64,000 bases of DNA, taken from positions 5,223,001 to 5,287,000 of the forward strand of contig OX031058.1 of assembly GCA_943736015.1 (NCBI GenBank), in the 5' to 3' direction. The position numbers were made by a program, and so were the translations under genes. Below, piece by piece: positions 3,792 to 43,600 of the stretch. How positions within the stretch are numbered: the first letter of the stretch is position 1; each line of letters opens with the position of its first letter. The notes below the pieces were generated by a model. It was given only the letters and a program-made list of their open reading frames with translations, was not told the DNA's origin and made no database searches. The stretch comes from Tridacna crocea (lineage: Eukaryota > Mollusca > Bivalvia > Cardiida > Cardiidae).

Positions 3792-3949
3792 CACTTTTCC
3801 AAACAACAAAATTCTAGCCTTTGGCAAATATGCTAGAAAACATTGTAGGAAAAGGACGAAATGTGGATTACCAGGAATTTATCCTTTTCCCACAATGTTT
3901 TCAAAAGCTCAGGGTTGTCAAAAGCTGAGAATGCATGGTAAAGGCTTAA
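3788..3949 (+). mobile_element. PCM copy with internal deletion
   Basis: TTAA at each end; most of the long arm is missing. Confidence 0.78.
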
Positions 3950-4173
3950 CCCATTACCACACAATCCCTACTTTTGACGCCCCTGAGAAAGAAGCCTTTT
4001 GAAAACACTGTAGGAAAAGGAGAAAATGCTGGTAACCAGCATTTTCTCCTTTTCCCACAGTGTTTTCTACTCTTCCCAGAACAAATTTCAAATTTTCAGT
4101 CACCTTTATTTGTCGTCTGCAAATGCTTTCAATTTGAACCAGTCTAAATTTTTGTCGTGTGGTAAAGAGTTAA
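3946..4173 (-). mobile_element. PCM-A full copy
   Basis: Shares TTAA at both sides with neighbours; GAAAACACTGT left and ACAGTGTTTTC right co-vary. Confidence 0.88.
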
Positions 4174-4627: not shown

Positions 4628-7600
4628 CTGAAAAAGAAATTATTTCATTAAACTATAAACCTTCAAAAAAAACCCAGAAAGTTCCTGCCAATAGCCAAAG
4701 ACTAAACATTACTGCTTTCGATGATTATGATATCAGACAGTCTAGATCTAAAATCAGACTGCACATTCTATGCAGCAATAGTCTGATTTTGATCTACACA
4801 GCAGTAGAACAACAAATCATCCCTAAAGCTGTGGTCACGCCATACAAAGTTGACTGTCATGGTTAACTACGATCATTTTGTGATCCTACCGTGACAGTAT
4901 TTTGAGCATTGTTGACTGTAGTGTACTGTAATTGACCTTACTTAATCGTAGTATCTTTAATACGTTCAACTACGGCCAACAACGGTGATTCCCCATTTTG
5001 GTTAATTATGTTAAGATGTGACAGTGGTTAAAATAAAATAAATGCAGCTTTACCATACTGAGCAGGCATACTTACAACATTTTACCATAGTTTTATGCAG
5101 CTGACCTTCATTTACCATAGTTGTGCATACTTAGGATGTAGTTTATATGTAGTTTAATGTAGTCAATCATAAATTTACATGGTAATATCCTAGTTAACCC
5201 AAGCCACTTTGCATACAGTTAAATGTACTCATCCTTACTTAGACGTAGTTCAACCTACTTTGACTATCTTTATTGCCAAGTTTGAACCTACTTTGAGCAT
5301 ACGGCAACGTAGATGACTGTAACCAGAGTTTGCTTCTTTTCCTACTATGTTTTCTACTCTATCAAAGACAGAAAGAATCACTTGAGCAACATCTAAATTG
5401 CAACTGTTTTCAATTTGAACCACACTACAATTTAGTGGGTTGGTAGAGTTCACTCTTCACCAAAACAAAACTTTGGACTAGTCCAAATTGAAAGCATTTG
5501 AAGATGACAGATTGAATGTGAGGAAAATTGTTGAATTTGTGTTTGAACAACATAAATTGCCTTTTCTCCAAAGTAATTTTCAAAAGTCATCTGCTGACAG
5601 GTAAACGGGACATGGTCTGAGAGACTAGTCGCCACATGCGAAACATTTGTATTATTGACCGGACATAATTATTTGTTTGACCCACATTTTAACCCTTTAC
5701 TCCACAGATACTCATTTTGATGTATCAATAACAGACAGCTTTTGAAAACACTGTGGCAAAAGAAGAAATTGCTCTTAACGAGCAATTTCTCCTTTTCCCA
5801 CAATGTTTTCCACTTAATCAGGTATTTGTATCCTCATTTGTCCATATTTTTGACATCATATCTTTATTTGCTGCTGAAATGGAAGAGCCTCAAAATGACA
5901 TATCAGGTAAAGGGTTAACCCTTAGAGTGCCAAATATACACAGCATTTACAGTCAAAAACTGTAACCAAATGACTGCAATTTCAGATCTGCTTTAGTCTA
6001 TTAAAAATTTAGCAAAGTGGATTGTGTAGATCAATAATCAGACTGCACATTTTGAGCAGTCTGATCTTGACCTACACTGGCCACAAATCCACTTAATTTG
6101 TAAAAGGCAATCAACTCTTTACATCACAAGAAAATTCTAGACCACTCCAAATTGAAAGCATCTGCAGACAACAAAATAAATGCGATTGAAAAATTGAAAT
6201 TGTATTTTTTTGGAAGGGTAGAAAACATTGTGGGAAAAGGAGAAAATACTGGTTACCAGCATTTTCTCCTTTTTCTACAATGTTTTCAAAAGACATCCCT
6301 CTCAAGGCCGTTAAAAGTCAGAAATGTGTGGTAAAGCGTTAAGTTTAATGCTTATCAAAACCAGAGATGCTTCTGCAGACAGAGATCAAGTTCAGACTGA
6401 TCCATTTTGTGCAGTCTAATCACAGGTCTATGTTAATTGTTTGATACTTTCAAATTCTGACAAGCCAATGAAACATTTCTTTTCCAATTCAGAAACAGAA
6501 AAAAGAAAAAAAAAACGTCTTAAATTTGAGTTTTACATGTACACAATTTAAATTCTTCAATGTTTGTAATTTCATTCACTGACATATTTTGATGAATATC
6601 AAAGCTGACAAAACCAAATCATTTCCAGTATACCCCAAAAAATCTACAAAGCCAAAAATAAAGGAAGTCAACTGAACAAAGCAAATAAACAGAACTAGAA
6701 CCAAAACAAGCAAACTACAATTCAATAAATGGTACCTAACCTGTTTCTACACAATCCAGTGCTTTAATGCCCCAATGAAAAGGCTTCTAAAATCATTTAG
6801 GAAAAAGGATAAAATGCTGATATGATAGTAATGTTCTGTTCCCTAATTTCACCATATATATGTACACTATTGTAGATCTAGACTTAGACTGCACATACTG
6901 TGTAGTCTGATCCTGGGTCTACTTTGTCCATAAATTACATACAATAAGGCTTTGCACCCAGCAGTATCAACATATATCTAAAACATGGCCATATTTTCTG
7001 TAGTGTGCAATTAAGTCTTTATCCAACAACTAAATTAAAGGCTGATCCAACTTGAAAGCATTTGCAGACAACGAAATAATTGTGACCAAAGAATTGAAAT
7101 TTGGTATTGGAGGAGTAGAAAACATTGTAGTAAAAGAGTAGAAAACATAGTGATAAAAGGAGAAAATGCTGGTTACCAGCATTTTCTCCTTTTCCCACAA
7201 TGTTTTCTAAAGGTTTCTTTCTCAGGGGCATCAAAAGTAGGGATTGTGTGGTAATGGGTTAATTGATTGTATGGTAATTAATACCATTTTCAACATCATT
7301 TCACTTATATCTAGGTGGCCAGTGCACATATCCACACTTTCAAGGAGTTTTTTTTTCATGTACTCCACACAATTTTCTTTCTTTTTATACCAGTACTCCA
7401 CACAATTTTCTTTCCAAGCCAACTGCTGTTTTCCCTCATGGCCATTGCCAAAACAATAGTCAGTGGTGGGAGAGGAACAAATTCTGTCAGCACACTGACT
7501 ATCATCAATCCTCTGAAAGATATTGGTCGAGAAAGGGATCAAACTCTTGACCTCCTGTTGTCAAGTCCTGCACGCTACTGACTGAGCTACCGTGGCTCAG

Positions 7601-10600
7601 CTTGGAAAAGCTAGAATTAATTCTTGCAGCCCCCAATATTTAAGATAGGGGCTTAATTTAAGATCAGTAATGATATTGTGCCATCATATTTTAACCTGTA
7701 GATTAACATTAACAAAAAAATACGAATAACTCAAATATTATAACTCACTACCAAATAAAAAATTTCAGACTCTTCCATATCAAAACCTTTTGCAGATGAC
7801 AAAGTTAAAGTGGCTTAAGTGATTGGATTTTTCTTTTAACTCATTACCACACAATCACTACTTTTGACACCCCTGATAAAGAAGCCTTTTGAAAATACTG
7901 TGGGAAAAGGAGAAAATGCTGGTAACCAGCATTTTCTCCTTTTCCCACAGTGTTTTCTACCCTTCCCAGAACAAATTTCAATTTTTCAGTCACCTTTATT
8001 TCGTCATCTGCAAATGCTTTCAATTTGGACCAGTCTAAAATTTTCTCGTGTGGTAAAAGAGTTAAAGGGTAAAAATAAATGACAGGGTATAAAAAAATGT
8101 GGAGAAAGGAGAAAAGCTGTTAACCAGCATTTTCTCCTTTCCTTCAATATTTTGAAAAGCCTCCTTTCTAGAGGTCATTAAAACTTCAGGATAGTGTAGA
8201 AAAGGGTTAAAAACTTCCAAACATATTTTTTGGTAAAGACTTAAAACATAATCACTGAACTTTTACCTTCATTCGAGGTAATCCTCTAAATCTACACAAA
8301 ATTCAGATATTGCACCATAAAATGTATTCGCTGACTAGCAACGGGTTTCTGGTAACTCTGTCCCACTTACAAAGACATATTATAACCCATTTTTGGACAA
8401 TGAATTGAAAACAAGGAACAAACGGAGAAATTAGACAGACTACTGTAGTATAAGCATAACATTATTGGTTGTTCACGAGAATTTCATTAAACATCTGCTT
8501 ATTATAATTTGAAAGAGTTTATATACAGTATAACCTGTACACAGGAAATATCCAGAGGCAATCAGAAATGCGTATCACAAAGCAGGAGATTTTTCACTCT
8601 CAAAATTGTCTAAATTGAAAACATTTCGTAGCCCACAGATTGAATGAGACCCAAATGTCAAAAACTGTCTTGTAAACAGTAGAAAGCATGAAAAAGACAA
8701 AAAAGCTGTTAACCTTTCCCAAACAAGCCCTTGTTTTTACGTGTCTGCAGTACAAGTCTTTTGAAAACACTGTGGGAAAAGGAGAAATTGCTCGTAACGA
8801 GCAATTTCTCCTTTTCCCACAGTGTTTTCTACCCATTTGGAGAACTTTCTGCCATTTTTATGAAATTTGAAATTGTCGTCTGCAAACTCTTTGAGTTTGG
8901 AAGAGTCTAAAATTTGTCGTTTGGGAAAGGATTAACCAGCCATTTCTCCTATTTTTATTAAATTTCAATTTTTGAGTAACGTTTATTTTGTTGTCTGCAA
9001 GTGCTTTCAATTTGGACCAGTCTAAAATTCTGTCATCTGGAAAAGGGTTAAAGTAAATTTAGGAAAGGATGCAGAATGAAAACTTTGGTATCTTACTGCT
9101 TTGTTCATGACATCTTTGACAAAATTTCTAGAATTGTTCATTTTGAAAAAAGACAATAATAAAATGTGGTTCATATGACTGAGCTTGTCTTTGAAAGGGT
9201 AGAAACATTGCAGGAAAAGGATAAACTGTTGAATGACTACATTTTCTGCTTTTCAAATAGTTTTTCAAAAGTGTAGGATTTAAGTTTGTACATTTGGTAA
9301 GTACCAAACCAGTAACACATTCTCAATACCCAGAAATCAAATACTTGCATGCATAACTCAAAAAACACTCCCAAAGTTCCAGTTTCATGAAAAGATCTAG
9401 GCCTTTAACTTTGCTCAAAACCACTAACACACTGATTTTTAGGCTAAACCCATTACCACACAATCCCTACTTTGACGACCCTGAGAAAGAAGCCTTCAGA
9501 AAACATTGTGGGAAAAGGAGAAAATGCTGGTAACCACCATTTTCTCCTTTTCCCACAATGTTTTCTACTCTTCACAAAACAAATTTCAAATTTTTAGTCA
9601 CTTTTATTTTGTTGTCTGCAAATGCTTTTGAATTGGACAAGCCTAAAATATTTTCGTTTGGTAATGAGTTAAGTTGATTTCTTCATTTGAAACTCATTCC
9701 ATCCAAAAGAAAAGACAAGGTAACATTTTAAAATTCTGAGTTAATACAACCTTTCAGACTCAACCTAGCAAAAAAAAGTTTGTTTGTTTTTTTTGCCTAT
9801 GCAGATTGCGAAGGCTGGCATGGGTTTATACTTTTTGCAGATGTGGTAAAAGTTCTTGTCAGACTCAAACCAGCAAAATAATGGCTTTTGCTGAGGTTGT
9901 GGTAACTCAGGATTTGTGAATGTTAATGAAACCTGTTAATGTTAAATGCACGTAACAAACTCAAGGTAGAAAATGAGTCTGTTAGCAGATTTCAGTAAAA
10001 TATGAGACTAAACTTTTTATTTGAAACTGGGCCAAGAAGCTGTATTTACCAACCTGTCTACATGGCTTTCTAATTCTCAAGAAGAATTTCTAAATATCTG
10101 ACATACCCACCCTCTGATTGGCTACACCACAAAGATAAACCAATCAGAAATTGCCTAACGTTTTAGATTTAGAAATAGACTTCAGACAGGTTGGTCAATG
10201 AAGACAAATGGGTCAGTCTCACTAATTATTTGAAAGACACTGATCTAAATCTGAATTTAACTCTTTACCAAACAACAAAATTTTGGACTAGTCCAAACTC
10301 AAAGCATTTGCAGACGACAAAATAAATGTGAATCAAAAATTGAATTTTGATTTGGAAAGGTTAGAAAATATTGTGGGAAAAGGAAAAAATGCTGATTCCC
10401 AGCATTTTCTCCTTTTCCCACAATGTTTTCAAAGGCTTTCTTACTCAAGGTCGTTAAAGGCTGGGATAGTATGGCAAAGAGTTAAAAACTAGCTGACTGG
10501 CCAAGATATTCTATCTTATAAAGTAAGATAACCAGTCTTGCTTGGACTCTGTATTTGTGCCAAGCTCTGTGAAAAGGGATCTCAATGCATTTGCAAAAAG

Positions 10601-16600: not shown

Positions 16601-19600
16601 AAAATAGCTTAAGAGGCTACGTAGCCTTTTAAGGGAATACCATCAAAAAAATCTTTTTTGGTAATTTTTTGATTCTTCATTATTGATGATTTGTATTATT
16701 TTTTCATATAAATTTCAGTGATATATATATTTTTTGATTTGGTGTGATGTGAAAATTCTAAGTACCCACCTTTAAAAGGAAAGTTTTATAATAAATAGCG
16801 TGGGAACCAGCATTCCCTTTTCTTATAAAGTTCTTTTCCCTGACAACAATAAGTCCCTTTATCTATATCTGGGCATGTCTAAAAATTCTTTGTTACGTAA
16901 ACATTTAAAAAAGAAAAAAAAATCTCCATCTTCCACAATTATCTCACACAGTTACTCATACGAAGAAATGTGGCGAAATCTATAAATCTAACCTGGAGGG
17001 GGCATTCCTCTATGGGTTATAGGCCTAATAACTCCTGGTGGTATTAGTTTTCTCTCTAACTCTGTCAGTCTGAAAGTAGAAGTATTAATATTTGAATCTT
17101 TCCCACAATATCTCACATTATAGTGATCCACGTGGTTACCAGCATTACCTCCTTTTCCACCAATGTTGTCAAATCTTTTACAGACAATAAATTATTGCCA
17201 TTGTTTTACCAACTCTATGTCATCTGCTACTGCTTTTAATTGGGACTTCCCTAAATTCTGGTAATTTGCAAAGAGTAAATTTCCAATCACAATCTCATGT
17301 TTTGGTAACTTTACAAGGCTGTCGGAAGCGGTCCAGCTGGTCCAGCTATGGCCGGACCAAACTTTTGGCCGAAAATGAAAAATGGCCAGCCCAATTTTCG
17401 AAAAAAAAAATGCGTAATATAAACCTCAAAAAATGCACCATAATGCACCAGAGAGCGCCTTATTTTCAAAATTTTTCCGGGGAAGCATCCCGGAGCTCAA
17501 CATACTGGCCGGACCAAATGAAATTTCCTTCCGACGGGCCTGCTTTAAGAATAAATTGAAATCTAAAAACATTGTGCATTTTCTCCTTATTCAACGATAA
17601 TTTCCATCTAACTGAAGACAATTTCTACCATGTTAGCCACACTTTATTCGTCTGAAAATGGTACACAGTAAAATTAATCTGATGTTTTGTCTTCTGGTAC
17701 CACAAAGCTTTCAAAAGTACTTCAAGAAAAGGAGTGATATTCTCCTACTTCCATCATGTCTCAGGGTCGTAAAAACCAGGGTTGTTTGGTAAACGGTTAA
17801 TGACCCTGATGTGCATGGCTTTTGAAAACATTGTAGCATGATAAAGAAAAATTGAAGGTAAACCAGCATTTTCTCCTTGTATAACACTGTTTTCTACCCT
17901 ATAATAGACAAACCTTACGGTGTTAGCCAATTTCGTTTATCATCAGCAAGCACTTTCAAGCAGACATGTCTAGAATTTCTTCACCCCTGAAACTGAATGT
18001 CTTAACCTTTTCCCAAACAATCCCTGGTGTTCATGACCCTCAAATAAGAAGCCTTCTGAAAACCTTGCGGGAAAAGGACAAAATGCTGGTCACCAGCATT
18101 TTCTCCTTTTCCCACAATGATTTCTTCCCTTCCCAGAAATTATGTTACAATGATCTTATAATGTTTTCTACAGCTATCTCATGCAGGCCCATGGAAAGTA
18201 ATATCTGTACAGTAATGGATTAATTTTGTGAAAAAAGAACACACTTACTTCTGCCTGAGCATTCCACATTCATGTCTGGATTCCTTTAGCTCACGTTCTG
18301 CTGCTCTTGTGGCAAGCTGAAGTAATAGGACAGGAGAGATTTTAACTCTTTCCAAAACAAGCCCTGGTTTTTACATGTCTGCAGTACAAGTCTTTGGAAA
18401 ATACTGTGGGAAAACGGAGAAATTGCACTTAACAAGCAATTTCTCCTTTTCCCACAGTGTTTTCTAGCCTATCAGAAAACTTTCTGCCATTTTCATCAAA
18501 TTCAAAATTGTCATCTGCAAACACTTTGAGTTTGGGACAGTCTAAAATTTGTCATTTGCGAAAGGGTTAACACTTACAGAACTGGGTAAATAAACAGGAG
18601 CATGGCAAACCGTTGGCTACAGTTGCTAGATTTTCAGTAAAATTTCCAGGTCAAAAAAGGGGCACAATTGGCAAAAATCTTAGATGGTTTCCTCATTTGT
18701 TGCATGGGTTCCCCTTTTGAAAGTCAACAACTTGTCTGAGGTGAGATATTTCATAATTAAAAACTGTGTAAGTTTTGCACAATGAAGCAGACAAGGTCAA
18801 TGTAGACACCAACAATCAAGCCAGTTTTACGGCAATACCTCAACATTTTTTTGGGAAAAAAGCATTGCTAAAATGAACATTAACAATCAAACAAGAGGGC
18901 CAAGATGGCCCTGGATTGCTCACCTGAATTTTTCAGATGATCATAGCCTTTTTTTTTTTTTTGAGGTATTGAAACACTGGAACCAAAATTACCAAATGAA
19001 TTTTAATGACCCTGAGGAAGAAGCCTTTTGAAAACATTATGGGAAGAGGAGAAAATGCTGGTAATCAGCATTTTCTCATTTTCATCCAAAGTTTTCTACC
19101 CTATCAATGAAAACTTGCATCATATGAGCCACAATGAAGTTGTCGTCTGCAAATGCTTTTAATTTGGATAGGTAAAAAATTTGGCTGTGTGATACAGGGC
19201 TAAACTCAACAAAACAAAGTCTACAGCAAAGAAAACACTTACCCAGTTCTCATGAGCCTTCTTTTCATTTGCAGCAATCTGAAATAATGACAGTTACTAA
19301 CTAAACAGGTAAACCCTTCACTATGTTTTCAGAGAAAACTAGAGCTATCAACAAAGGTGATTATACCCCCTCCCAGCTCCTTGTCACAAAATCAGGTCTT
19401 TGGCACAGAATGCAGAATGGTTTAGTACAAAAGTAAGAGTTGAAAAAAGTTCCAGGGGAGATAATTCCACAAGAAATCGCAGCAGGATCATAAAAATTGC
19501 ACATGTACAACTTCATATATACAGGAACACTGTGTGTCAATTTGAGTTTTGTATCTTACAATACTGTCTGAGAATTTTGTCGGACAAATTTGTGTCTGCA

Positions 19601-22600
19601 GACAGACAGATGGATGGGTAGACGGAGAGACAACCATGGTGATTCCAGTATACCCCCCTCCAATTCTTTGTGGGGAGTATAATTTTTTTTTCTTAACCCT
19701 TTTACAACACAATCCCAACTTCCCATAAATGAAGCTTTTAGAAAACATTGTGGGAAAAGGAGAAAATGCTTGTAACCAGTGACCAGAATTTTCTTCTTTT
19801 CCAACAATGTTTTTTACCCTTTCACTATAGCTCTAGTTGAACAAGCTTCGTTCCAAACATCAGAGGTCCTGGTACTTCTTGATCTTAAATTGGGCGTATG
19901 TGTATCAGAAAGAATTTAGGATTAACTGCCCTATAAGTATAGATTCCAACCTTATTAGTTAACCATTTAGCAAACAACAAAAGTTGCAGCTCGACCAAAT
20001 TAAATATAACTCAACAAATGACTACCAGCATTTTCTCCTTTTACCCACAATTTTTTCAAAAGCTAGGGTCGGTATTCACCAACCATTCTTGGTCTTATTC
20101 TTCAGAATTTAGTCAATGTGAAACTAACAGAACTTCTGATTGGCTAAACTGAATGGTTTAGCCAATCAGAAGTTTTGTTACTTTCACAGTCAGACAATCT
20201 TGAAGAGTAATGCAAAGAATGCTCTTAAGAGTGGTTGGTGAATACGGACCCAGTTTGATAAGTGCTATGAAAACTGAGAATTATGTAGTATGAGTTTACC
20301 CTTTACTACACAATCCTGACTTTTACTACTTTGAGAAAGAAGCCTTCTGAAACAATGTGGGAAAAAAGGAGAAAATGCTAGTAACCAGCATTTTCTTCTT
20401 TTCCCACAATGTTTTCTACCCTTCCCAAAACGAATTTTAAATTTTTAGTCACTTTTATATTGTCATCTGCAAAAGCTTTTAATTTGGACCATTCTAAAAT
20501 TTTGTCGTTTGGTAAAGATTTTACTAGCCTGAGTTTGAAATAAGCATCTTTAGCGGTGAGAGGAATACATGTTTATGTGTTTACACAACAATAATTGCAC
20601 TCATGGTGTAAAATCGTTTTTTGATAGGTCAGAATCGGGTCATGTGATGAAAAAACCTGCATGTTATTTTTCTATGAACGCACTAGCACTACTTTCGGTT
20701 TTTCCAAATTGTTGTTGGTATCTAATTCTAGATTTCATGCAAACTGTTTATGGGCTATATTCCATCGCTTCATCAGTCAAATACAAAAAGATCGATTTCT
20801 TTTTATTTAAAAACTTGCAAAAAGGAAACTAACGAATAAACATTGACAAAACGATGCATGTTTAACTTTATTTGCACCCTAAAAATAAAAAAATACACTA
20901 TGCCAACAGTGAATAGAAAGTCTGGATGATCGACGTCATCAGTTACATCATTCAATACGTCAGCAATCGATTTCTATGAAGCCAAGGTCACTGAGTTAAA
21001 TTTAGTACACTGTGTAAATGGAAAAATCACTCTTGCATAAATGAACTTGATTTCTTGTTTCATGATGGAGTTGTTTATGACTTTTTTATTGCAGGGATTA
21101 GGTTAAAAAATGCTATTGACCAGAAAAAAAGTGGATTTGATGGAATGTATTTAGTGAAAGAACTGTTGGAGAAAGGATCGAAAGAAGTGAATACACTGTG
21201 TTAAGAATTTTTGAAATGTTGGTGTGATAGGAACGATATTAGAAACAAGTTTAGAACTTGGAAACCAAAATTACATATTGAAAAATTAGTAGCTGCGACA
21301 CCGTTTTTTATGTTCTAATAAGTGGGTCACAAAATGTTGGTGTCATTTGATTCATATCTTACAAGAAACAAAGGATAGACCAGGTCTTATATCGGCAACA
21401 GATAGATACTCGTCGAGGACAGATCTGCCGACGGTACGTACGCATATTCTTTACACATTATCTATGAAAAGGTCACTAGAAAGAACACATCGTCCGCTTA
21501 GCCTCAAGTTTAGATAGTTGATTGTATTGTTCATATAGATCTACATAATTGTTTTATTCTTTATTCTGTTAAATTTTGTTCAATGAATCATCGAAAGTAT
21601 GATTTCAAAGCCAGCAAAATGGCCGCCTTCGACCAAACAGAAATGTTGAAAAGCTAAAAATAGATTGTGTATTCATGTTCTATCTGCGAAGGAAATTAAC
21701 TTGTATTTACTGTTGTATTTGTCCGTGATTTTTTTCTCTCTATCATTTTCAAAAAGTGATTTAAGTGAACAGCGAGTGCAATTATAAGGGTTGAGTGCCG
21801 ATTTTTGTGTTTTCATCGAGATATAAAATGCAATTGCCTTATTACATGGCTTAACATCGGGCATTATGTTAAGCCATGTAATAAGGCAATTGCATTTTAT
21901 ATCTCGATGAAAACACAAAAATCTGCACTCAACCCTATAACAATGCAAACAATGGAGCTAAGACTATACTTTGTCAATTTTGTCAAAAATACTGAAATTA
22001 TAAAAACAAATCTAACATGATTATTTTTACCTGTGATCTAAAGTCTCTTTCTGCTTTTGAAATTTCACTTTTGAGGTCTTCTACTTGGTTTCTAAAAATG
22101 AAAAGAAATTAATAACTTTTACAAGTTTGATCAATCTTAACCTCTTCTGGAAGCAATTGCAGTCAACAGATTTATTCTTGTTTATCCTTTACTAGACAAT
22201 CCAAGGTTTTTATGTAAACCATGACAGAAGCCTTTTAAAAATATTGTAGGAAAAGGAGAAAATGCTGGTAACCAGCATTTTCTCCTTTTCCCACAATGTT
22301 TTCTTCTATGTTAAGCACAATTTCAATCATTTCAGCCACATGTAAATTGTAGTCTGAAAATGCTTTCAACTTGGACAAGTGTACAATGTCTGTCACATGG
22401 TAAAGGGTTAAATCTAACACGGCAATTTGGTCTGAAGGGTATAACATATTAATTGGAAAAGAGAAAGTACAATTTGCACAATGTTTTCAGCTCATTCAAA
22501 GACAAATCAAATCACTTGACTTAACCCATTACCACACGAGAAAAATTTAGACTGGTCCAAATTGAAAGCGTTTGCAGACGACAAAATAAAAGTGACTGAA

Positions 22601-25600
22601 AAATTGAAATTTGTTCTGGGAAGGGTAGAAAACACTGTGGGAAAAGGAGAAAATGCTGGTTACCAGCATTTTCTCCTTTTCCCACAGGGTTTTCAAAAGG
22701 CTTCTTTCTCAGGGGCGTCAAAAGTAGGGATTGAGTGGTAATGGGTTAATTGAAAATTATTGTCTTCAAATGCTTACAATTAGGTCTTGACCAAATTTTG
22801 TCATCTGGTAAAGACAGAACCAAGTTTGTAAAAGTTATGTGAAAGTGCTTAGATCAACTTACTTGTAGACTTCATTTTCCTTCAATAGGTCTTGTGTATA
22901 ACTGTCTGAAGTTTTCAACTTGGAAATATTCTGATTCTTTAGCACCTCTTGCTCTCCTAGTTGTCTGTAAAGATTGAAAAGAAAGTTTGACAAAAAAAAA
23001 TTCATGATTTGTCCAATCCAAATGAGTAGATACATTAAGATTAATTGACTTTCACAGAAGAGTTGTTAAAAATAGAACTGTGGCAGAGTGAGCAATTACA
23101 TCCCCGCCAGCACCTTGTCACTGAAGCAGCACAATATGTAAAAGGAAAGTTTAACTCATTACCAAATGACAATACTTTAGGCTTGTCCAAATCAAAAGCA
23201 TTTGCAGACAACAAAATAAAAGTGACTGAAAATTTGAGATTTGTTTTATGAAGGGTATAAAACATTGTGGGAAAAGGAGAAAATGCTGGTCACCAGCATT
23301 TTCTCCTTTTCCCACAATGTTTTCAAAAGGCTTCTTTCTCAGGGTCATAAAAACCAGGGACTGTGTGGTAATGGGTTAATGATTTTAAAAACATATATCA
23401 TCTGTGACCTTGACCTTTGACCCATGTGACTTAACAGGCCACTCTTTGGATCATAGGAAACACTTGCATAAAGTTTCATGGTTCTAGGTCAAACAGGCAC
23501 TGAATTAGAGCACAGAAAAGATTATCAAAAAATCCCCAGTGACCTTGACCTTTGAACCATCTGATCGAAAAACCATTGGGTACCTCATCTGGTAATACAC
23601 AACATTTGTTTAAAGTTTCAGGGTCCTTGTTGAAATGGCTATTGAGTTAGAACATGAAATGATTTTCACAAAGCTCACCTGTGACCTTGACCTTTTTGAC
23701 CTAAAAATGATAAGGCAATTCCTTGGGTCATAAGTAATAATTGTGTAAAGTTCAAAAGGCCTTTGAGTTAGAACATTGAAGGAAAAAGTCTATGGATGGA
23801 CAGATTGACGGGTAAAGGGATGGATGGACAAACCAAGAGACATTTAGGCAAGAAAAAAAAACCAACATACTCCCCTCTTCTTCATAGGGAGAGGGCATTA
23901 TACTAGTATAACACAGATTTCAATCAGTATGACAAGACACAAAAAATGTGTAATTAATGCTCTGTTAGGCCCAAGAAAGCTTTGGCATTGCTTTTGATAA
24001 ATTTTCTGCAAGTCTAAGGATAAGTTAAGAGTTGCTCTACAACATTAATTTCATTGAATTATGTCAGACTTGCTTGGTATAATGAACTGCAGAAATGCAT
24101 TAAATTCCCACTTGTCAGAGCGAGGTTCATACATCTCTGAGCGTTCTGATCTTAATCTTCCTTGTATTCAAAAGCTAGGAAAATTATTCCTAGGCTTCTA
24201 AAATACTTCTGAGCTTTTTACTACTTCTGAAAACATTGTCATAAAGGAGCCATTGCCAGTAACAAGTAAATTCTCCCTTTCCAACAGTTACTGCTTTGCT
24301 ATTGAAAAATGTTTTATAACTTTTCTTCCAAATATTTTTCCTCTGTCTGATTCGTAGAACTAAATTTTTGTAAATAAAATAACAGCCTAAAATATGCCTC
24401 TAATTTGGTCTACGCTTCTTGGCCCAAATAGCTCAGGTAGTAGAGTGTGAGACTTGTACACATTAAGTCTTGGGCCTCATGAGGTTACGGATTTGAGCTT
24501 CATGGCTGGGCATTTAAAAGTATTTTGGGTGAGACTTTAAACTCATGTGACAGTGCTATACACTGAGCACATTAAAGAACCAGGGATATAGGATGGGTTT
24601 CATCCTAAATCTTGCATTATCCTCTGTAACATAACTAACAGTCTTCAGGGGGATACGGCCATTTGGGAAACCAAAGGCAATGATAAATAAATGCAAAATC
24701 AATCAATCAACAAGCTTCAAGACTCTCTCTCTCTGCCTTCATTTTATCAGTCTGGCAGGTGGCAATTAAATTACTAATACACAAAGGATTAAGGTATGAT
24801 ACATTGCTTCTGTTAAACTATTTTACCTGGTTAATTCTGCTTCTTTCTCCTTGAAATACTTAGACAACACTTCTAGTTTGGTTTGAGCTTCTTGACCCTG
24901 TCTCTCTGCCTTCATTTTATCTGTCTGGTTTGTCTCCATCTTCCTCTTTAACTGCTGGATATTGTCTGGAAAAAATCATCAACCTTGTGACTCATAAACC
25001 CTTTCCTAAACGACAAATTTTTGGACTAGACCAAATTTAAAGCATCTGCAGATGACAATTCAACTCTTGCTGAAAAGATGATTTCTGTCTATGATAGGGT
25101 AGAAAACATTGTGGGAAAAGGAGAAAATGCTGGTTACCAGCATTTTCTCCTTTTCCCAAAATGTTTTCAAAAGGCTACTATTCTAGACCCGTAAAAACCA
25201 GGGATTGTTTGGGAAAGGGTTAACTCTTTACAAAACAATGAAATTTTACCCTTGTCCTAAACTCTAAGCATTGGCAGATGATAAAACAAATGTTGTATGG
25301 GTTCTATATTTAACCCTTTACCTGATATGCCAATTTGAGGCTCTTCTATTTCAGCAGCAAATAAAGATATGATGTCAAAAATATGGATAAATGTGGATAC
25401 AAATATCTGACTAAGTGGAAAACATTGTGGAAAAAGGAGAAATTGCTCGTTTTGAGCAATTTCTCCTTTTCCCAAATGTTTTCAAAAGCTGTCTGTTGTT
25501 GATAAGTCAAAATGAGTATCTGTGGAGTAAAGGGTTAATAGCCGAGAACTAGTCCGAGTTTGAAATATATATCATCAGTGATGACAGGGACATTATAAAG

Positions 25601-28600
25601 TTTTTCCATGACCACAACAACGATGACGTACACGACAACAATGCAGACGATACTATGACAATATGTAAATGTTCTTTTGAAAACAGCCAAGCTAAATATA
25701 GTCTCAGGTGAGCAATAAAGGACATAAAAGCCTCAGCTAGGAAGTTTTTCTGGAAACCTAAGGTATGCTCATATTTCCTATTAGACGCATCTGTATTGCA
25801 TAGCCTCGGTGCTCCTGTAGTTACTATTATATCTTACCTTCCATCTCTTTCCGGGAGTCAACTTCTATCTGTAGTCTATTCTGTAGAATGTCCCGTTCTT
25901 CTTCTACTGCTTTTAATGCTGCGTTCATCTGAAACATGCAAAAATCTTAAAGATTATCTTTCAGCCTTTTACTATCACAGCCTCTTCAAACTTACTTCTA
26001 ATACTATTAACCCTTTACTCCATAGATACTTGTTTCTATGCATTGCTTGTAGGAGTCTTTGGAAAACATTGTGGAACAAGAGCGGCAAATTGTCGCAATA
26101 TACGCCCGTCTCATCCCAAATTGTAAAGCTGGGGCATGCACCAGACTAAATTCAAGTATGAAAAACGACAAAGGGCAGTAACTCAAAAATTAAGCCAGCA
26201 AGAGTTATGATTCCTGAGCACTGCACTCCCCCTTGATGAGATCTATCCACCCATGAAATTTCATAACCCTAGCTACTATAGTTTTGGAGATTTTCATAGG
26301 ACAAAAATCAAGTACGAAAAATGATAAAGGGCAATAACTCAAAAATTAAGCAAGCAAGAGTTATGATTCTTGTGCACTGCACTCCCCCTTGATGAGATCT
26401 ATCCACCCATGAAATTTCATAACTCTAGCTAGTTTAGTTTTGGAGATATGCTCCGGACAAAATTCAAGTATGAAAAAAACAAGGGCAATAAGTCAAAAAT
26501 TAAGCAAGCAAGAGTTGTGGTTCCTAAGCACTGCACTCCCCCTTGCTGAGATCTATCCACCCATGAAATTTCATAACCCTAGCTACAATATTGTTGGGGA
26601 TATATGCTCCGGACAAAATTCAAGTATGAAAAACGACAAAGGGCAATAACTCAAAAATTAAGCAAGCAAGAGTTATGGTTCCTGTGCACTGCACTCCCCC
26701 TTGGTGAGATCTATCCACCCATTAAATTTCATAACCCTAGCTAGTATAGTTTTGGAGATATGCTCCAGACAAAATTCAAGTATGAAAAACAACAAAGGGC
26801 AATAACTCAAAAATTAAGCAAGCAAGAGTTATAGTTCCTATGCACTGCACTCCCCCTTGATGAGATCTATCCACCCATGAAATTTCATAACCCTGGCTAG
26901 TATAGTTTTGGAGATATGCACCGGACAAAATTCAAGTATGAAAAACGACAAAGGGCAATAACTAAAAAATTAAGCAAGCAAGAGTTATGATTCCTGTGCA
27001 CTGCACTCCCCCTTGATGAGATCTATCCACCCATGAAATTTCATAACCCTAGCTAGTATACTTTTGGAGATATGCACCGGACAAAATTCAAGTATGAAAA
27101 ACAACAAAGGGCAATAACTCAAAAATTAAGCAAGCAAGAGTTGTGGTTCCTAAGCACTGCACTCCCCCTTGCTGAGATCTATCCACCCATGAAATTTCAT
27201 AACCCTGGCTAGTATTATTTTGGAGATATGCTCCGGACAAAATTCAAGTATGAAAAACAACAAAGGGCAATAACTCAAAAATTAAGCAAGCAAGAGTTGT
27301 GGTTCCTAAGCACTGCACTCCCCCTTGCTGAGATCTATCCACCCATGAAATTTCATAACCCTGGCTAGTATTATTTTGGAGATATGCTCCGGACAAAATT
27401 CAAGTATGAAAAACAACAAAGGGCAATAACTCAAAAATTAAGCAAGCAAGAGTTATGGTTCCTGTGCACTGCACTCCCCCTTGGTGAGATCTATCCACCC
27501 ATGAAATTTCATAACCCTGGCTAGTATAGTTTTGGAGATATGCTCCGGACAAAATTCAAGTATGAAAAACAACAAAGGGCAATAACTCAAAAATTAAGCA
27601 AGCAAGAGTTATGGTTCCTGTGCACTGCACTCCCCCTTGGTGAGATCTATCCACCCATGAAATTTCATAACCCTGGCTAGTATAGTTTTGGAGATATGCT
27701 CCGGACAAAATTCAAGTATGAAAAACGACAAAGGGCAATAACTCAAAAATTAAGCGAGCAAGAGTTATGGTTCTTGTGCACTGCACTCCCCCTTGATGAG
27801 ATCTATCCACCCATGAAATTTCATAACCCTAGCTAGAATAGTTTTTGAGATATGCTCCGGACAAAGAACTGGACGCCGCCCGCCCACCCGCCCGCCCTGC
27901 CGCCACCCCACCCGCCCGCCCTGCCGCCACGGTTGATCCCATAATACGTCCCGTCTTCGACGGGCGTATAAAAAGGTGAAATTGCTTGTGACGAGCACTT
28001 TCACCTTTTGTCACAATGTTTTCTATGCTATCAAAAGGCGTCCCATACACATGAAAAATGGCTTCATCCTTGCTGTTATTTAGGGTCAATTAGAGGTATC
28101 ATAGAAATGCCTCATGGGGTTATGGGTTAACTCTATACCAAACAATTAAATGTTAGACTGGAAACTTTTGCAGACAACATATTGAATGTAATCCATATGA
28201 GGGGATATTTCTATGAAAAGGTGGGAAATACTGTTGTGACATGTATTGCCTCTTTTTCTCACATTGTTTTCAAAAGCCTTCTTCCTAAGGGGCATTAACT
28301 CTTTACCAGACAATCCCGACTTTTAATGACCCTGAGAAAGATGCCTTCTGAAAACATTGTGGGAAAAGGAGAATTTGCTAATAAGCAGCATTTTCTCCTT
28401 TTCCCACAATGTTTTCTACCCTTTTCAAATCAAATTTCAATTTTTGATTCAAATTTCTTTAGTGGTCAGCAAATGCTTTTAATTTGGACTAGTCTAAAAT
28501 TTTGTCGTTTGGTTAAGAGCTTAAATACCATTTTCCTTTCCTATAACCACAATCACACCTTTTGCATACGGCTTCACCAACAAAACTTTACATGTCCAGT

Positions 28601-34600: not shown

Positions 34601-37600
34601 TTAACAATTTTTGTAGAGCTTCACCCAAGGAACATTCCTGCCAAGTGTTATCAAGATTGACCATCTGGTTTTGGAGGAGAAGATTTTTAAAGAAATTGTT
34701 AACGGACGGACGGACAGATGGACGGACGGACGGACGCCTGACGATCACAATAGCTCCCCTTGAGCACATTGTGCTCAGGTGAGCTAAAAAAACACTACTG
34801 CATTCTAGTGCCAACATTTAGTTGCAAATGCTTGAATTTCAATGAAAATTCTAAGTTGAAAAGGAACATAACTGTTCATAATATTTTGAAAGTTACCCAA
34901 CCAAGTTGTACGAGTTCCCCTTCTAATAGTTAACAACATGTCAAGTTTGAAGTAAACATTTTCGGAAACAATAGAGATACTGCAAAAGTCAAAACTTTTG
35001 CATGATAACAACCCATAGGACCACAATGCCAGGATTATGTAAATTATGTCATTTTCCTAGAAAACGCCCAAGTTAAAAATTACCTTTTTACAAAACTACA
35101 CAATTTACAGTTGTCCCTATTGAAAGACTTTGTAGATAACAAACAGGTTGTTGTTCAAAAAATTGGTTTTGCCTATGGTGGGGTAGGAAAAATTGTGGAA
35201 AAGGAAGAAAATACTGTTTTCAAACAATGTGCTCAAAGATTTTCCCTCTTATTGTAATTAAAATACAGCGCTGTTAGGTCAAGGGTTCATAAACCCTCTA
35301 CCACATGGCAAAATTTTAGACCTATCAAAAATGAAGGCATTTGCAGACAATTTAAGAGTGGCTCAAATTGCGCTAGTTTTCCTTTGATAAGGTAAAAAAC
35401 TTTGTGGGAAAAGGAGAAAATGCTGGTTACCAGCATTTTCTCCTTTTCCCACAATGTTTTCAAAAAGGCCTCTTCTTAGGGGTCGTTAAAAGTTGTCATT
35501 GTGTGGTAAAGGGTTAATTAGCTAAACTAACTTACATCTAGTTCATTTTCTTTATAAGCTAAATCTTCTTGCATTCTTCGACTGTCTGTGGAATACTGTT
35601 CTATTTGTTCATTTAGTTCTTTTACTCTGAAATGATATGGTATGAGAATATTATCCAACATGGCGAATACATCTTGCAGATCTACAATATGGTGGATGTT
35701 GTTTCTTTTTTCCTGTAATTGTGAGTCAAACATCCATTTCAAAATTTTTTTCTAAAAGGATTTGAATCATATTCTTTGTGTTTGAAACTGTTTTCATGAG
35801 TATAAAGTGTGACAAGGAAGGTAATTCAAGCATAACTGCAATTTCTGTGACATCTTCACAGGCAGCAAGTGAGACAAGCTTGAAAACAACATACTTTGGA
35901 CACAGTTACCCCTTTTTCTTAATGTAGAATTTTCTCTGAAAAAAAAAAAATAAACAGCAGTAGCAAAGCCTTGGCACCCATAAGGAGATGCTGCATTTTT
36001 TTTTTTCTTTTTTTTTTGGGGGGGGGGGGGCAGTTACCTGTGTTTCTGGTATGGGTTCTCCTTTAAAATGCAACAACTAGCCAAACTTTGAAGAAGTAAG
36101 TATCTTCCATAATGTAAGAAGTGTCTTTACCCTGGGTTCATTTAAACACTCATTTGATAAGATATCAACTTTTTACAACACAGTTCTGAGGTTTAATGAC
36201 CTTGATGAAGATGCCTTTGAAAACATTGTGGGAATAGGAGAAAATGCTGGCAACCAGCATTTTCTCCTATTCCCACAATGTTTTCTAACCTGCTGGACAC
36301 AAATTTTTGAGTAACATATATTTTGTTATATGCAAGTGCTTTCAATTTGGACCAGTCTAATATTTTGTCGATTGGTAAAGAGTTAAGAAGCTTTTAACAT
36401 AAATGTACATACTTTTCTGACCACGATACTGCCTCTTCATCAAGCTGAAAAAAAAGATAAGAAAGATCTTTACAGTTTATTGGAAAAAAAAGTTTTTAGA
36501 CTCATCCATCTTGAAGACAAGGCAGATAGAAAAAAAGCTTTGTTTTTGTTGAGTAAATACATCATAGAATGAGAGCATGGCAGGCAGGTGTTTAGATTTT
36601 TTTAATTGAAAAACGTTTAGAGATTACAAATTAAATCGATGTTGCTTTATTGGCGAAATTTGCCTTTGAAAGGATAGAAAAGATCATGGGAAAAGAAAAT
36701 GCTGGTTACAAGGGTTTTCTACTTTTCCCATAATCTTTTCAAAAGGTTTCTTTCTCGGGGCTGTTAAATCTAGAGATTGTATAGTAAAAGGCTAAGCAAA
36801 CAGGAGAACAAATACCTGATTTTTCCTTGTGTCTAATAGTTCTATTTGCTGTGTAAGACTCTCTATTTGTACCTGAGATCTTCTTAATTCATCTTCTTTC
36901 TCTGTGTAACTCTTGTTTCTCTGAAAGATGATCAAATATAACTATAATTATGTAGAAAGGAGGGGTAGTTGATTTTATTTAAAGTCACTCAGTCAATCTC
37001 TATTCAAAATGTGTTGGCAGCTGCCACCACCAGCAACAGCAATGCCATCACCAACAAAAATCCTCTAGCCTCATGAATTTTCATTTTTCATATAAAAAAT
37101 ATGAGGTTATTCCACATGCTAGAGCACACTACTGAATTCTATTTGATGATTATACTGAGGGACCAGTCTATGTTTAGGACAAGGTGACAGCAGAATATTT
37201 CCTTTCCGCGGTACGCAGTATAGCGGAAAAGCTTTGTCTTCTTGATACGCACCTGCAACAAAGTTGTTATGACACGTTTACGAAGGACTGACCAATCAGA
37301 TGAGAACACAAAAAAAGTACGGGTAGATAGATCGAGAAGGTGTCAGTTCTAGCGAGTACGCCTAGACGATAGGCACACTTTGTAGCTATGGATTCTTCAG
37401 AGCCGACATTCAGCCAGCCACGTGGCAGCAACACTGGGCAGTCTAACCAGCTGTTGTGTCAGATTGACGAGCTTATTACTACCAAGCTTCGGTCTTTTCA
37501 AGACAGCTTGTCTAACTCTCAGAAAGAAGTAGCAGAAGACATTTTACACAGTTCTGGATATTCATTTAAGCGCAAAAGTTGTGAGGACCAATTCAAATTC

Positions 37601-40600: not shown

Positions 40601-43600
40601 TTTGGTGAGAAACATCGAGATATGACTTACCAGTTTATCTCTGAATGAACTGATATCCGACTCCAAATTTCCTGTAGTAGCTTGTTGATTATACAGGTCT
40701 GATTCTAGTTCCTCAATCTGAAGAATATAGTGAAGACAGCTATACTATTCTTAGCCTAACAGCCCCCCCCCCCTCTTTTTTTTTAACAAATGACTTCATC
40801 ATAAGGCAGATTTATCCTTGGACATTCAAAAAGTTGAACATTAGCGAAAAGTTTCGACCCAGGCCAGCCTTCGTGTACTGTGCAGGCTGACCTGAGTCGA
40901 AACCTTTAGTACATGCATTAACCCATTACCACACAATCCCTACTTTTGACGCCCCTGAGAAAGAAGCTTTTTGTTTAATACAGATGGCTGCTTAGTACAA
41001 TTTAACACAGGTAACCATTAGACGGTATGTGGTAAGCCTTGATATGAATATCTTGATATGAAAATTGCACAGACGAGACACAGTTTATGCACCTTTTTTT
41101 TTTTTTAATAACCTGTTCACTAACTTGGATTTTTAATCTTATCTAGATTATCAAGGTCTAGTGTCATTCTTCAAATTTCTAATTTCAAAGAACATAACTC
41201 CTGATTGGTCAAACCATTTGGTCTAGCCAATTAGAAATAGTCTTACTTTTTAAATCTAGAATTCAATTCAAAATGGTTGGTGAATAATAGACCAGTTCCA
41301 TACCTTTTTATCCTTGACCTGCATCTCATCTTCTAAATTTTCTTTTTCTTTGGTGGCAATAAATAGTTGTTCTTCTAATCCTCGAATGATTCCTGTCATA
41401 GACACAAATTATATCCTTATTTCACAGCAAATAACAGTTCCCTATCTCTATATATAAACCATTCCTATTCTTTAAGAAAAAAAATCCATAACAAAGAAAT
41501 AAATGTACACATGCATAACAGAAATACAGGGACCGGACAAGATTTGAATCTGGAATGCCTGGATAAAAGGCCAACACCATAACCACTTAGGTACAGAGAA
41601 TTCTCCCTAATGCAAGTTGTTAGATATTGTATGTAAACCGGAAAGAAGCCATGTATGAAGAAGTGGTTTCCTATAACATACCCTCTCTTAACCCTTTACC
41701 CTATAAGGCATTTCTATGGTATCTCTAATTGACGGTAAACAACAGCAAGGATGAAGCTGTTTCTTATGTGTATATGACACGTTTTGATAACATAGAAAAT
41801 ATTGTGGCAAAAGGTGAAATTGCTCATGACGAGCAATTTCACCTTTTGCCACAATGTTTTCCAAAGGCTTCTACAAGCAATGCGTAGAAATGAGTATCTA
41901 TGGAGTAAAGGGTTAAAGTCATTATTTTATCAATAACCCAAAGCCTTATTAGGCAGAAAGTCTATCTTTGGACAACAAATGGGATGAATGACTCAATGGC
42001 CAATCCAGGATGAGCCCACATCTTACGAACAAAGTCTGTAACAAAGAAATGAATTATCAAATGCATAATAGCAGAATTAAAGGGAATGGGAAGGATTTGA
42101 ACCAAAATTGCCTTGACAAAAGTCCAACACCATGACCACAGAGCTAAAGAGAATTCTTCCCTAACACAGATGTTTGGTATTGTATTTTAAATAGGAAGAA
42201 GCCATGCATGAAGGAGAGGTTTCCCGTAACACTATGATGGTAATTCATCAATTCAAATACAGTGGTAGTGTAAGTAGGAAAAACATCACACAGTATCTGA
42301 AGGATTTACAGTGATCCATAGTATACAGCTAATAAAAACTAGTTAATGTCCTCTACTTATCAAGTGAATCCTAAAAGTTTTCAAATGACTGTAGATACCT
42401 GTTATAGGTAATGAAAGTTCTAGTAAAAAGGGTTTCCACACATCCCTGTAATGCATTACTCCTTTCCCACATGACAAGATTTTGGCCTTGTCTGAACTGA
42501 AAGCATCTGCAGACAACATTTTCAATGTGGCTCAAATCATGCAATTTTTCTTTGATAGGGAAGAAAACATTGTGGGAAAAGGTGAAAATGCATTTTCTCC
42601 TTTTCCTACAAGGTTTTCAAAAGGCTTCTTTCCTAGGGGTGTCAAAAGTCGGCATTAATTGTGTAGTACAGAGTTATAACAAGCAAGTCATCACAATGAT
42701 TGTAGATCAAAACCATAGGTCAGACATAATACAGCAATAAACCCCTCTCACAGACTACAAAATTTCACACTTTTCCATATCAAAAAAAAATTACAGACCA
42801 AAATAATTGAATGTGGCTAAAAATAATAAGACTGGTCTTGAAAGGTTGGAAAACTTTGTAGGAAAAGGTGAAAATGCTAGCCACCAGTATTTTCTCCTTT
42901 TCCCACCACATTTTCAGCTGGACTCTTTTTCAGGGTTATTTAAACTCAAAATAGTTTGATAAATTCTTTAAACAACTCATACCTAGAGCTTCTTGTTGTC
43001 CTGACTTCTTCTTCTCACCCTGAAATGTTGATATACAAACTCATTGACCTTTATCCCTTTGCTACCTGATTCCGAGTTTTAATGACCTTGACAGAGGTGG
43101 CTTTTGAAAATAACGTGGGAAAAGGAGAAAATGCTGTTAAACAGCATTTTCTCCTTTTTCCACAATATTTTCTATGCTATGACTCAAAAATTTCTTGTTT
43201 TAAATGACATTCATTTTGTCCTCTGCAAATAGTTACAATTTGGCCAAACCTCAACTTTTGTCAAGTAGTAGAAAATTAACCCATTAAAGTCATGCAGATG
43301 ACACTTTATTTGATAATTTCTTGCAGTGGACCAGTTATGAGATCATTTTTGCACAATAAGAAGCTACTCATAATCAGGAATTTCTCTCTTAGCTGACGAG
43401 CCAAGACCCGGTAGCTTAGTCGGCAGCATACAACTTTGTTTGAGATCAGGGAGACCAGCACTGTTTTATTGGATATTGCAAAGTTTATTAAAGCTTTGAT
43501 AGCAGGCAATACAACAAATCCGTTGTTAAGATTACAGAAACAAGCACTGTTATATAGGGTAAAATTCCAAGCTTACTTACCCTACAAGAGCAGGCAATAC

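Follow-up and report, generated by a model that had tools for sequence, protein, structure and literature searches.

A palindrome of 67 nt at 8763..8829 of the window, by which we mean the whole 64,000-nt stretch analysed here (C3:5223001-5287000, from an assembly of 1,048,827,098 bases in 31 contigs), raises the question of how two arms stay complementary while their sequence differs between related repeats, and what such a symmetry is for. The initial annotation had proposed that the arms change together between subfamilies of a repeat, and had explained this either by selection for a hairpin or by the copying of one arm from the other.

The palindrome and the element that carries it

The palindrome begins with GAAAAC and ends with GTTTTC, and around the centre base A at 8796 all 33 of its pairs match, just as had been claimed. 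Folded in silico it forms a single 32-pair stem capped by a 3-nt loop (-54.9 kcal/mol as RNA), and none of 200 shuffles folded equally well. It lies inside an element bounded by TTAA at 8709-8712 and 8932-8935, with the following parts:

8709..8935, plus strand: full element of subfamily B2, TTAA to TTAA, 227 nt (from the sequence; B2 profile match at 8706-8935)
8709..8727, plus strand: left end of the element, TTAACCTTTCCCAAACAAG (from the sequence; the B2 consensus ends agree at 18/20 positions)
8763..8795, plus strand: left arm of the palindrome (33/33 pairs)
8796..8796, plus strand: unpaired centre base of the palindrome (off-consensus in 22% of A-like copies)
8797..8829, plus strand: right arm of the palindrome (33/33 pairs)
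8916..8935, plus strand: right end of the element, the minus strand of which reads TTAATCCTTTCCCAAACGAC (from the sequence; subfamily consensus)

Directly 3' of this copy lies a right-half copy of the element (8925-9051), perhaps a partial tandem duplication.

Judged by its sequence, the element is a piggyBac-like MITE of 227-230 nt with TTAA/CCCTTT ends, a length that leaves no room for a transposase gene. Four subfamilies (A, B1, B2 and C) share a common layout of 55 + 67 + 106-108 nt, and TTAA is present at both ends in 35 of 45 B1, 27 of 45 B2 and 40 of 49 C copies. Two copies are nested in others, and there the host model positions repeated at the junctions number 3 and 5, close to the 4 predicted by a TTAA duplication. 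Ends and duplications of this type mark the piggyBac group. On both sides the B1, B2 and C consensuses read TTAA-CCCTTT(A/C)C; the A consensus has CCCTTT on the left and CTCTTT on the right, the right end departing from the CCC/CCY start at its second base. Over the first 20 nt the terminal inverted repeat is matched at 15 positions in B1, 18 in B2, 16 in C, and 16 in A when the ends are compared by eye and in register (a computed value of 8 used a consensus without its last base).

Three other classifications were rejected. 1) Foldback elements have long terminal inverted repeats that form most of the element; here the ends match over a short stretch only, and the palindrome sits inside the element, starting 55 nt in from its left end. 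2) Helitrons are without terminal inverted repeats and have a hairpin adjoining the 3' end; this element has terminal repeats and a TTAA duplication, and its palindrome lies more than 100 nt from the right end. 3) A 67-nt element independently inserted into unrelated hosts does not fit with a palindrome that begins 55 nt from the left end in 4/4 subfamily consensuses. An Rfam search of the window returned a tRNA as its sole match; a pattern of the palindrome core had 0 matches in viral contigs and 0 in genome contigs, from which records of this very genome were possibly excluded; and in a literature search we recognised no description of the MITE family.

Abundance of the family and piggyBac genes of the same genome

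To find copies we built a profile from 17 of them and rebuilt it from the matches it returned. These include palindromes found on both strands, and a single oriented match per place went into consensuses and counts. At E up to 0.1 the window holds 132 non-overlapping matches (122 with at least 20 bits; 64 vs 68 by strand), which cover 20,504 of its 64,000 bases (32%) and 82 of which span the palindrome, and at E up to 1e-4 there are 122 matches with 31.2% coverage. A sample of the genome, namely 18 stretches of 1 kb at base 20,000,001 of contigs 1 to 18, contained 16 matches in 11 stretches, amounting to 3,263 of 18,000 bases (18.1%, SE 4.4%). Extrapolated, the family would comprise on the order of 190 Mb in several hundred thousand to a million pieces. 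In twenty 10-kb stretches chosen around B2 copies it makes up 25.6% of 198,020 bases.

The same genome has 118 matches to the piggyBac transposase domain (PF13843), the best of which are without inner stops. We read the DNA at 13 transposase loci (at seven, no more than about 1 kb of upstream sequence) and found neither the full end of the family nor its palindrome there. At the three loci where both ends are visible these are TTAACCCTTTATATAC (L128), TTAACCCATTTATGCC (L132) and TTAACCCTTTCAG (L133), with 7 to 11 terminal nt in common with the MITE family. Among the inverted repeats of one autonomous piggyBac none resembled the palindrome. The L132 piggyBac (G000:C7:38461700-38465000; about 2.9 kb) carries one 18-20-nt palindrome, GCGTCCCC-TTTT-GGGGACGC, in both of its end regions, at unequal distances of 134 and 19 nt from the ends.

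The repeat landscape of the window and the size of the assembly, 1.05 Gb in 31 contigs, led us to reject a bacterial or phage origin, and the repeat types seem reminiscent of molluscs. The window has several further features. Tandem arrays of one 156-bp unit occupy 26136-27865 (11.1 copies, followed by short GC-rich repeats) and 31569-32220 (4.2 copies), and seem reminiscent of the core arrays of bivalve Helentron-type elements. Two more arrays, at 29744-30667 and 33084-34540, have units of about 155 bp and 148-166 bp, respectively, each with a short tetranucleotide repeat a little way behind it. A minus-strand stop-free stretch of 784 codons (45482-47836), partly acidic and Gln-rich, has no Pfam match at E 0.01; its first part crosses the MITE copy 47613-47837, which may sit at an exon edge. 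A 15-nt/30-nt tandem repeat (52465-52944) lies inside an Asp/Glu/Lys-rich open stretch on the minus strand (52227-53399). Of six window frames two have Pfam matches: coiled-coil-like ones, and a CCHC zinc knuckle (PF00098) in the frame at 37954-38268, perhaps the remnant of a retroelement gag.

Changes on both arms between subfamilies

When 226 near-full copies, drawn from the window and from the stretches retrieved elsewhere in the genome, were grouped by their flanks (average linkage, cut at 24% flank difference), 91 clusters resulted. Each of the seven clusters with at least six copies (51, 45, 8, 7, 7, 6 and 6; 130 of the 226 copies) has a consensus palindrome that is paired at 33/33 positions. 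Relative to the overall consensus both arms are changed at pairs 3, 8 and 26 in B2, at pairs 3 and 8 in B1, and at pairs 3, 8, 13 and 20 in C, while the other four of these clusters have the overall consensus palindrome. Counted together with an A group changed at pair 26 there are six lineage-level changes, all of them two-sided, and four of these are transversion swaps (the comparison is unrooted and we claim no direction). Consensuses from the subfamilies' own alignments, with 45 copies of B2 (of 49 profile matches, score >210), 45 of B1 and 49 of C (of 51, score limit 200), are likewise 33/33 paired; the copies from beyond the window are mainly the best 40 matches to one window copy each, and are biased to similar copies. 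Flank differences of distant subfamilies are rough where these were aligned to the A profile (pair scoring, window pair distances and the 290-copy set).

Among the clusters of three copies, whose consensuses are noisy, cluster 37 is paired throughout, and clusters 24, 49 and 48 have one, two and five mismatches, respectively. The mismatch of cluster 24, made up of three window copies, is A/A at pair 27 and looks inherited. All other clusters, 80 in number, consist of one or two copies, so that 96 of the 226 copies are in clusters too small to judge well. Representatives of the paired states in the window are:

5690..5917, plus strand: B1 copy, both arms changed at pairs 3 and 8 (alignment)
18342..18569, plus strand: second B2 copy in the window (B2 profile)
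22522..22749, minus strand: A copy with a matched change at pair 26 (alignment)
36167..36385, plus strand: A-like copy with a matched change at pair 17, GGGAATAGG / CCTATTCCC (alignment)
41689..41916, minus strand: C copy with pairs 3, 8, 13 and 20 changed in both arms (alignment)

The paired variants named by the initial annotation are thus present at pairs 3/8 (A vs B and C), 13/20 (41689-41916), 17 (36167-36385) and 26 (8763 and three A copies), and those of B2, B1 and C prove to be states of the subfamily consensus in the alignments of 45, 45 and 49 copies from the whole genome. The three A copies with the pair-26 change (22522-22749, 3946-4172 and 7837-8063) form a close group with flank distances of 0.056-0.075. 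The matched change at pair 17 is found in one of 290 copies; the copy at 39167-39371 has the same left arm and a deletion in the right one, and of the 39 further scored copies closest to 36167 none exceeds 89% identity.

Matched changes are what is directly predicted if the fold itself is selected, as a DNA cruciform or hairpin, or as an RNA hairpin serving as a source of small RNAs or a decoy, that amplifying copies need or profit from: any base pair would suffice, single changes would be purged and matched ones would pass. The very stable fold in silico agrees with this, as does the precedent of Made1, a human palindromic MITE that yields hairpin miRNAs (PMC1784062). A G-U-tolerant RNA stem should leave a strand bias, and in 244 A-like copies we observed none (C>T 263, G>A 250; A>G 156, T>C 164). 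There is thus no hint of a strand-specific RNA stem, although the majority of these changes are likely to have arisen after insertion. Further, four of the six lineage-level changes, admittedly a small number, are G-C to C-G or A-T to T-A swaps, which cannot be passed through a G-U intermediate. We regard selection on the fold as possible, though rather unlikely.

Constraint between lineages and decay in resident copies

Between the four subfamily consensuses the palindrome is 0.87-0.97 identical, the left flank 0.62-0.76 and the right flank 0.53-0.75; 11 of the 12 flank comparisons lie above the best of 100 shuffles, the exception being the right flank of B2 vs C. Among pairs of window copies the ratio of palindrome to flank difference is 0.59 at less than 15% flank difference and 0.35-0.41 above 30%. 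In 44 A copies the frequency of shared variants per site-copy is 0.046 for the palindrome, compared with 0.187 and 0.184 for the two flanks and 0.115 and 0.136 for the two ends, so that on this count even the element ends are less well conserved than the palindrome. Non-CpG variants seen at least three times in B1, B2 and C tell the same story, with 10 at 186 palindrome sites vs 70 at 476 flank sites (odds ratio 0.35, p 0.0009). Within the palindrome the inner halves, near the dyad, have fewer shared variants than the outer ones (0.033 vs 0.061 in the 44 A copies), and two of the repeated variants are inner and eight outer.

Private changes behave differently. In the 44 A copies there are 0.0191 singletons per palindrome site-copy compared with 0.0161-0.0166 per flank site-copy, and non-CpG singletons of B1, B2 and C number 88 in 8,585 palindrome site-copies vs 317 in 22,031 flank site-copies (odds ratio 0.71, p 0.004). 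Hence, the decay of resident palindromes is between 0.7 and 1.2 times as fast as that of the flanks, and the stronger filter is on what multiplies. The initial annotation had named an equal mismatch rate in palindrome and arms as the observation that would speak against its proposal, and for private changes the rates come near to equal, the B and C singletons being somewhat rarer in the palindrome.

A palindrome exchanged between subfamilies by ectopic conversion would also stay alike while the flanks diverge. The flanks of B2 are closest to A (0.73 and 0.75) and its palindrome is closest to that of B1 (0.97), and pair 26 is changed both in B2 and in a group of A copies. However, an ancestral B state with two changes at pair 26 would give the same pattern, and such exchange does not by itself produce two-sided changes; we consider it very unlikely.

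Matched double changes within single copies

If arms were converted by one another in resident copies, the second option of the initial annotation, single copies should have gained matched double changes. We compared their number with that expected from permuting the right-arm letters of each column among similarly diverged copies, restricted to copies in which 27 or more pairs could be scored (211 of 244 A-like, 45 B1, 45 B2 and 47 of 49 C). In the young subfamilies matched doubles are at chance, with 5 observed vs 4.3 expected among 137 copies and 211 changes (B1 2 vs 1.1, B2 3 vs 2.0, C 0 vs 1.2); two of the three in B2 are at the CpG-bearing pair 2. A C copy with a matched change at pair 21 (L021), which would favor conversion, had too few scorable pairs and was excluded; this pair is changed in seven C copies and matched in one, and its carriers, which belong to the more diverged copies, may represent an old lineage.

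The older and mixed A-like set gives an excess, 73 matched doubles vs 50.0 expected with pair 26 masked (SD 6.1, p 0.0005; 211 copies), of which 22 are of the transversion type vs 13.3 expected (p 0.0065). Other cuts agree: 254 copies with the five diagnostic pairs masked have 65 vs 45.5 (in separate runs for few, middling and many changes, 17 vs 11.0, 31 vs 19.1 and 17 vs 18.2), the 65 window copies have 25 vs 17.4 (p 0.024), and 48 little-changed window copies have 9 vs 4.3 (p 0.016). Co-changes number 79 at the true pairs and 25 to 46 at shifted pairs. All this would be in favor of conversion in resident copies, but the A-like set mixes many minor subfamilies, and the simplest source of its excess is matched changes inherited from them. 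The arm-copying claim thus has the older A-like copies on its side and the young subfamilies against it; with the latter at chance, conversion in resident copies is unsupported as the main cause, and we think it highly improbable. The chance level in 137 young copies means that no arm-to-arm copying is visible in resident copies, and that the symmetry is kept in amplifying lineages.

Copying could instead be coupled to amplification, if repair after excision switched template at the hairpin and reset the arms, such that new insertions are symmetric despite mismatches in their parents. This covers both the symmetry of lineages and its absence in young resident copies, explains well the exact symmetry over all 33 bp, and has precedents in recorded template switching that homogenises the arms of inverted repeats (PMC8604942, PMC3820800). 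The A-like excess of matched doubles likewise fits. Ten non-CpG palindrome variants, nearly all in a single arm, recur in at least three B1, B2 or C copies, and their carriers are not significantly closer in their flanks than random sets (lowest p 0.085; carrier distances were compared for palindrome variants only, and recurrent flank variants, 13, 36 and 18, were counted alone). Thus, most of the ten look like repeated changes rather than marks of sub-lineages, again as such copying would allow. The centre base of the C subfamily (49 copies, e.g. window 41689-41916) is G in 37, C in 10 and A in 2, a possible mark of inversion of the palindrome. However, G>C is also common at the flank G sites of C (32 vs 35 G>A, partly linked variants), and in the 290-copy set the centre base counts are T 27, G 27 and C 8 compared with 1150, 1147 and 686 at flank A sites, so that inversion of the palindrome is only a hint. 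Separately, we observe that the C state of the centre base sits on different flank backgrounds, as it might if whole palindromes had been inverted. Against copying at amplification, it cannot alone slow sequence change, and the palindrome changes far more slowly than the flanks, so that an extra constraint is needed; moreover, the mismatch of cluster 24 looks inherited. We rate it as unlikely.

What the symmetry may be for

Taken together, the comparisons suggest that selection on the symmetric sequence acts in amplifying lineages and not in resident copies. That part of the hairpin proposal of the initial annotation stands; the hairpin as such does not follow, since a symmetric protein-binding site looks identical. 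Our tentative first choice, to which we give somewhat less than even odds, is that the palindrome is a symmetric DNA site needed for amplification, probably the docking site of a piggyBac-type transposase multimer. Identical subunits of a transposase dimer or multimer would contact both half-sites, copies with an intact symmetric core would transpose more often, and lineages losing symmetry would be out-amplified. Adaptation of a lineage to a different transposase variant would be expected to alter the two half-sites together. Counting against a docking site are the length and interior position of the palindrome compared with those of piggyBac and MER85, the lack of an autonomous element with these ends or this palindrome among the 13 loci read, consensuses with single-arm mismatches among the three-copy clusters (24, 49 and 48), C pair 21 with its one matched change in seven copies, and the somewhat rarer singletons in the B and C palindromes; binding to one protein, moreover, by itself leaves the matched changes unexplained. 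We rank it first in view of the piggyBac-family palindromes that are read by transposase, in Trichoplusia ni piggyBac and MER85, and of the conserved interior of the coral CMITEs. The piggyBac transposase genes of this genome and the palindrome shared by both end regions of L132 also speak for it.

A bolder and quite doubtful idea unites binding with copying: the palindrome would be a self-correcting module, in which each amplification copies arm onto arm and so repairs the transposase-binding core at every jump, and this would have helped the family to fill about one fifth of the genome. Whichever reading is preferred, the hundreds of copies are a natural experiment in which a DNA transposon keeps its symmetry between amplifying lineages but scarcely within resident copies. 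Hence, the question of why some MITEs amplify so far becomes testable through changes of one arm, both arms or neither.

Comparison with known systems

The coral CMITEs of Acropora, which we compare by description, share with this family the TTAA target and, in most of their families, CCCTTT-type ends; they also have an internal region of 75 nt that is more conserved between families than the ends, for which a part in transposition was suggested (PMC2872659). They differ in being about 100 nt long and in having an estimated 1,600 copies or so in A. millepora, and the main text of that paper does not contain the word stem 'palindrom' (PMC2872659). Made1, the mariner MITE that is the source of hsa-mir-548, resembles the present family in its long, near-perfect palindrome able to form an RNA hairpin, but there the whole element is the palindrome, made of two 37-bp terminal repeats, whereas here it occupies the interior and bears no relation to the ends (PMC1784062).

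The closest parallels to a docking site come from piggyBac itself. A dimer of cysteine-rich domains binds the 19-bp palindromic internal repeat of T. ni piggyBac, i.e. subterminal palindromic DNA is read by a protein dimer, as would be the case for the putative docking here; that palindrome is much shorter and lies at bp 17-33 of the left end (PMC7351741). MER85 is, like the present family, a TTAA-bounded piggyBac MITE, and its palindrome is the binding site of a transposase fusion protein: in the reported binding data, elements without the 16-bp 5' palindrome never bound CSB-PGBD3 (PMC3459987). With 889 copies and an imperfect palindrome near the 5' end, MER85 differs from the family described here, which has far more copies and a perfect, interior palindrome (PMC3459987). 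Thus, where the palindromes of piggyBac and MER85 measure 16-19 bp and lie near an end, the one described here spans 67 nt and is centred about 89 nt from the left end.
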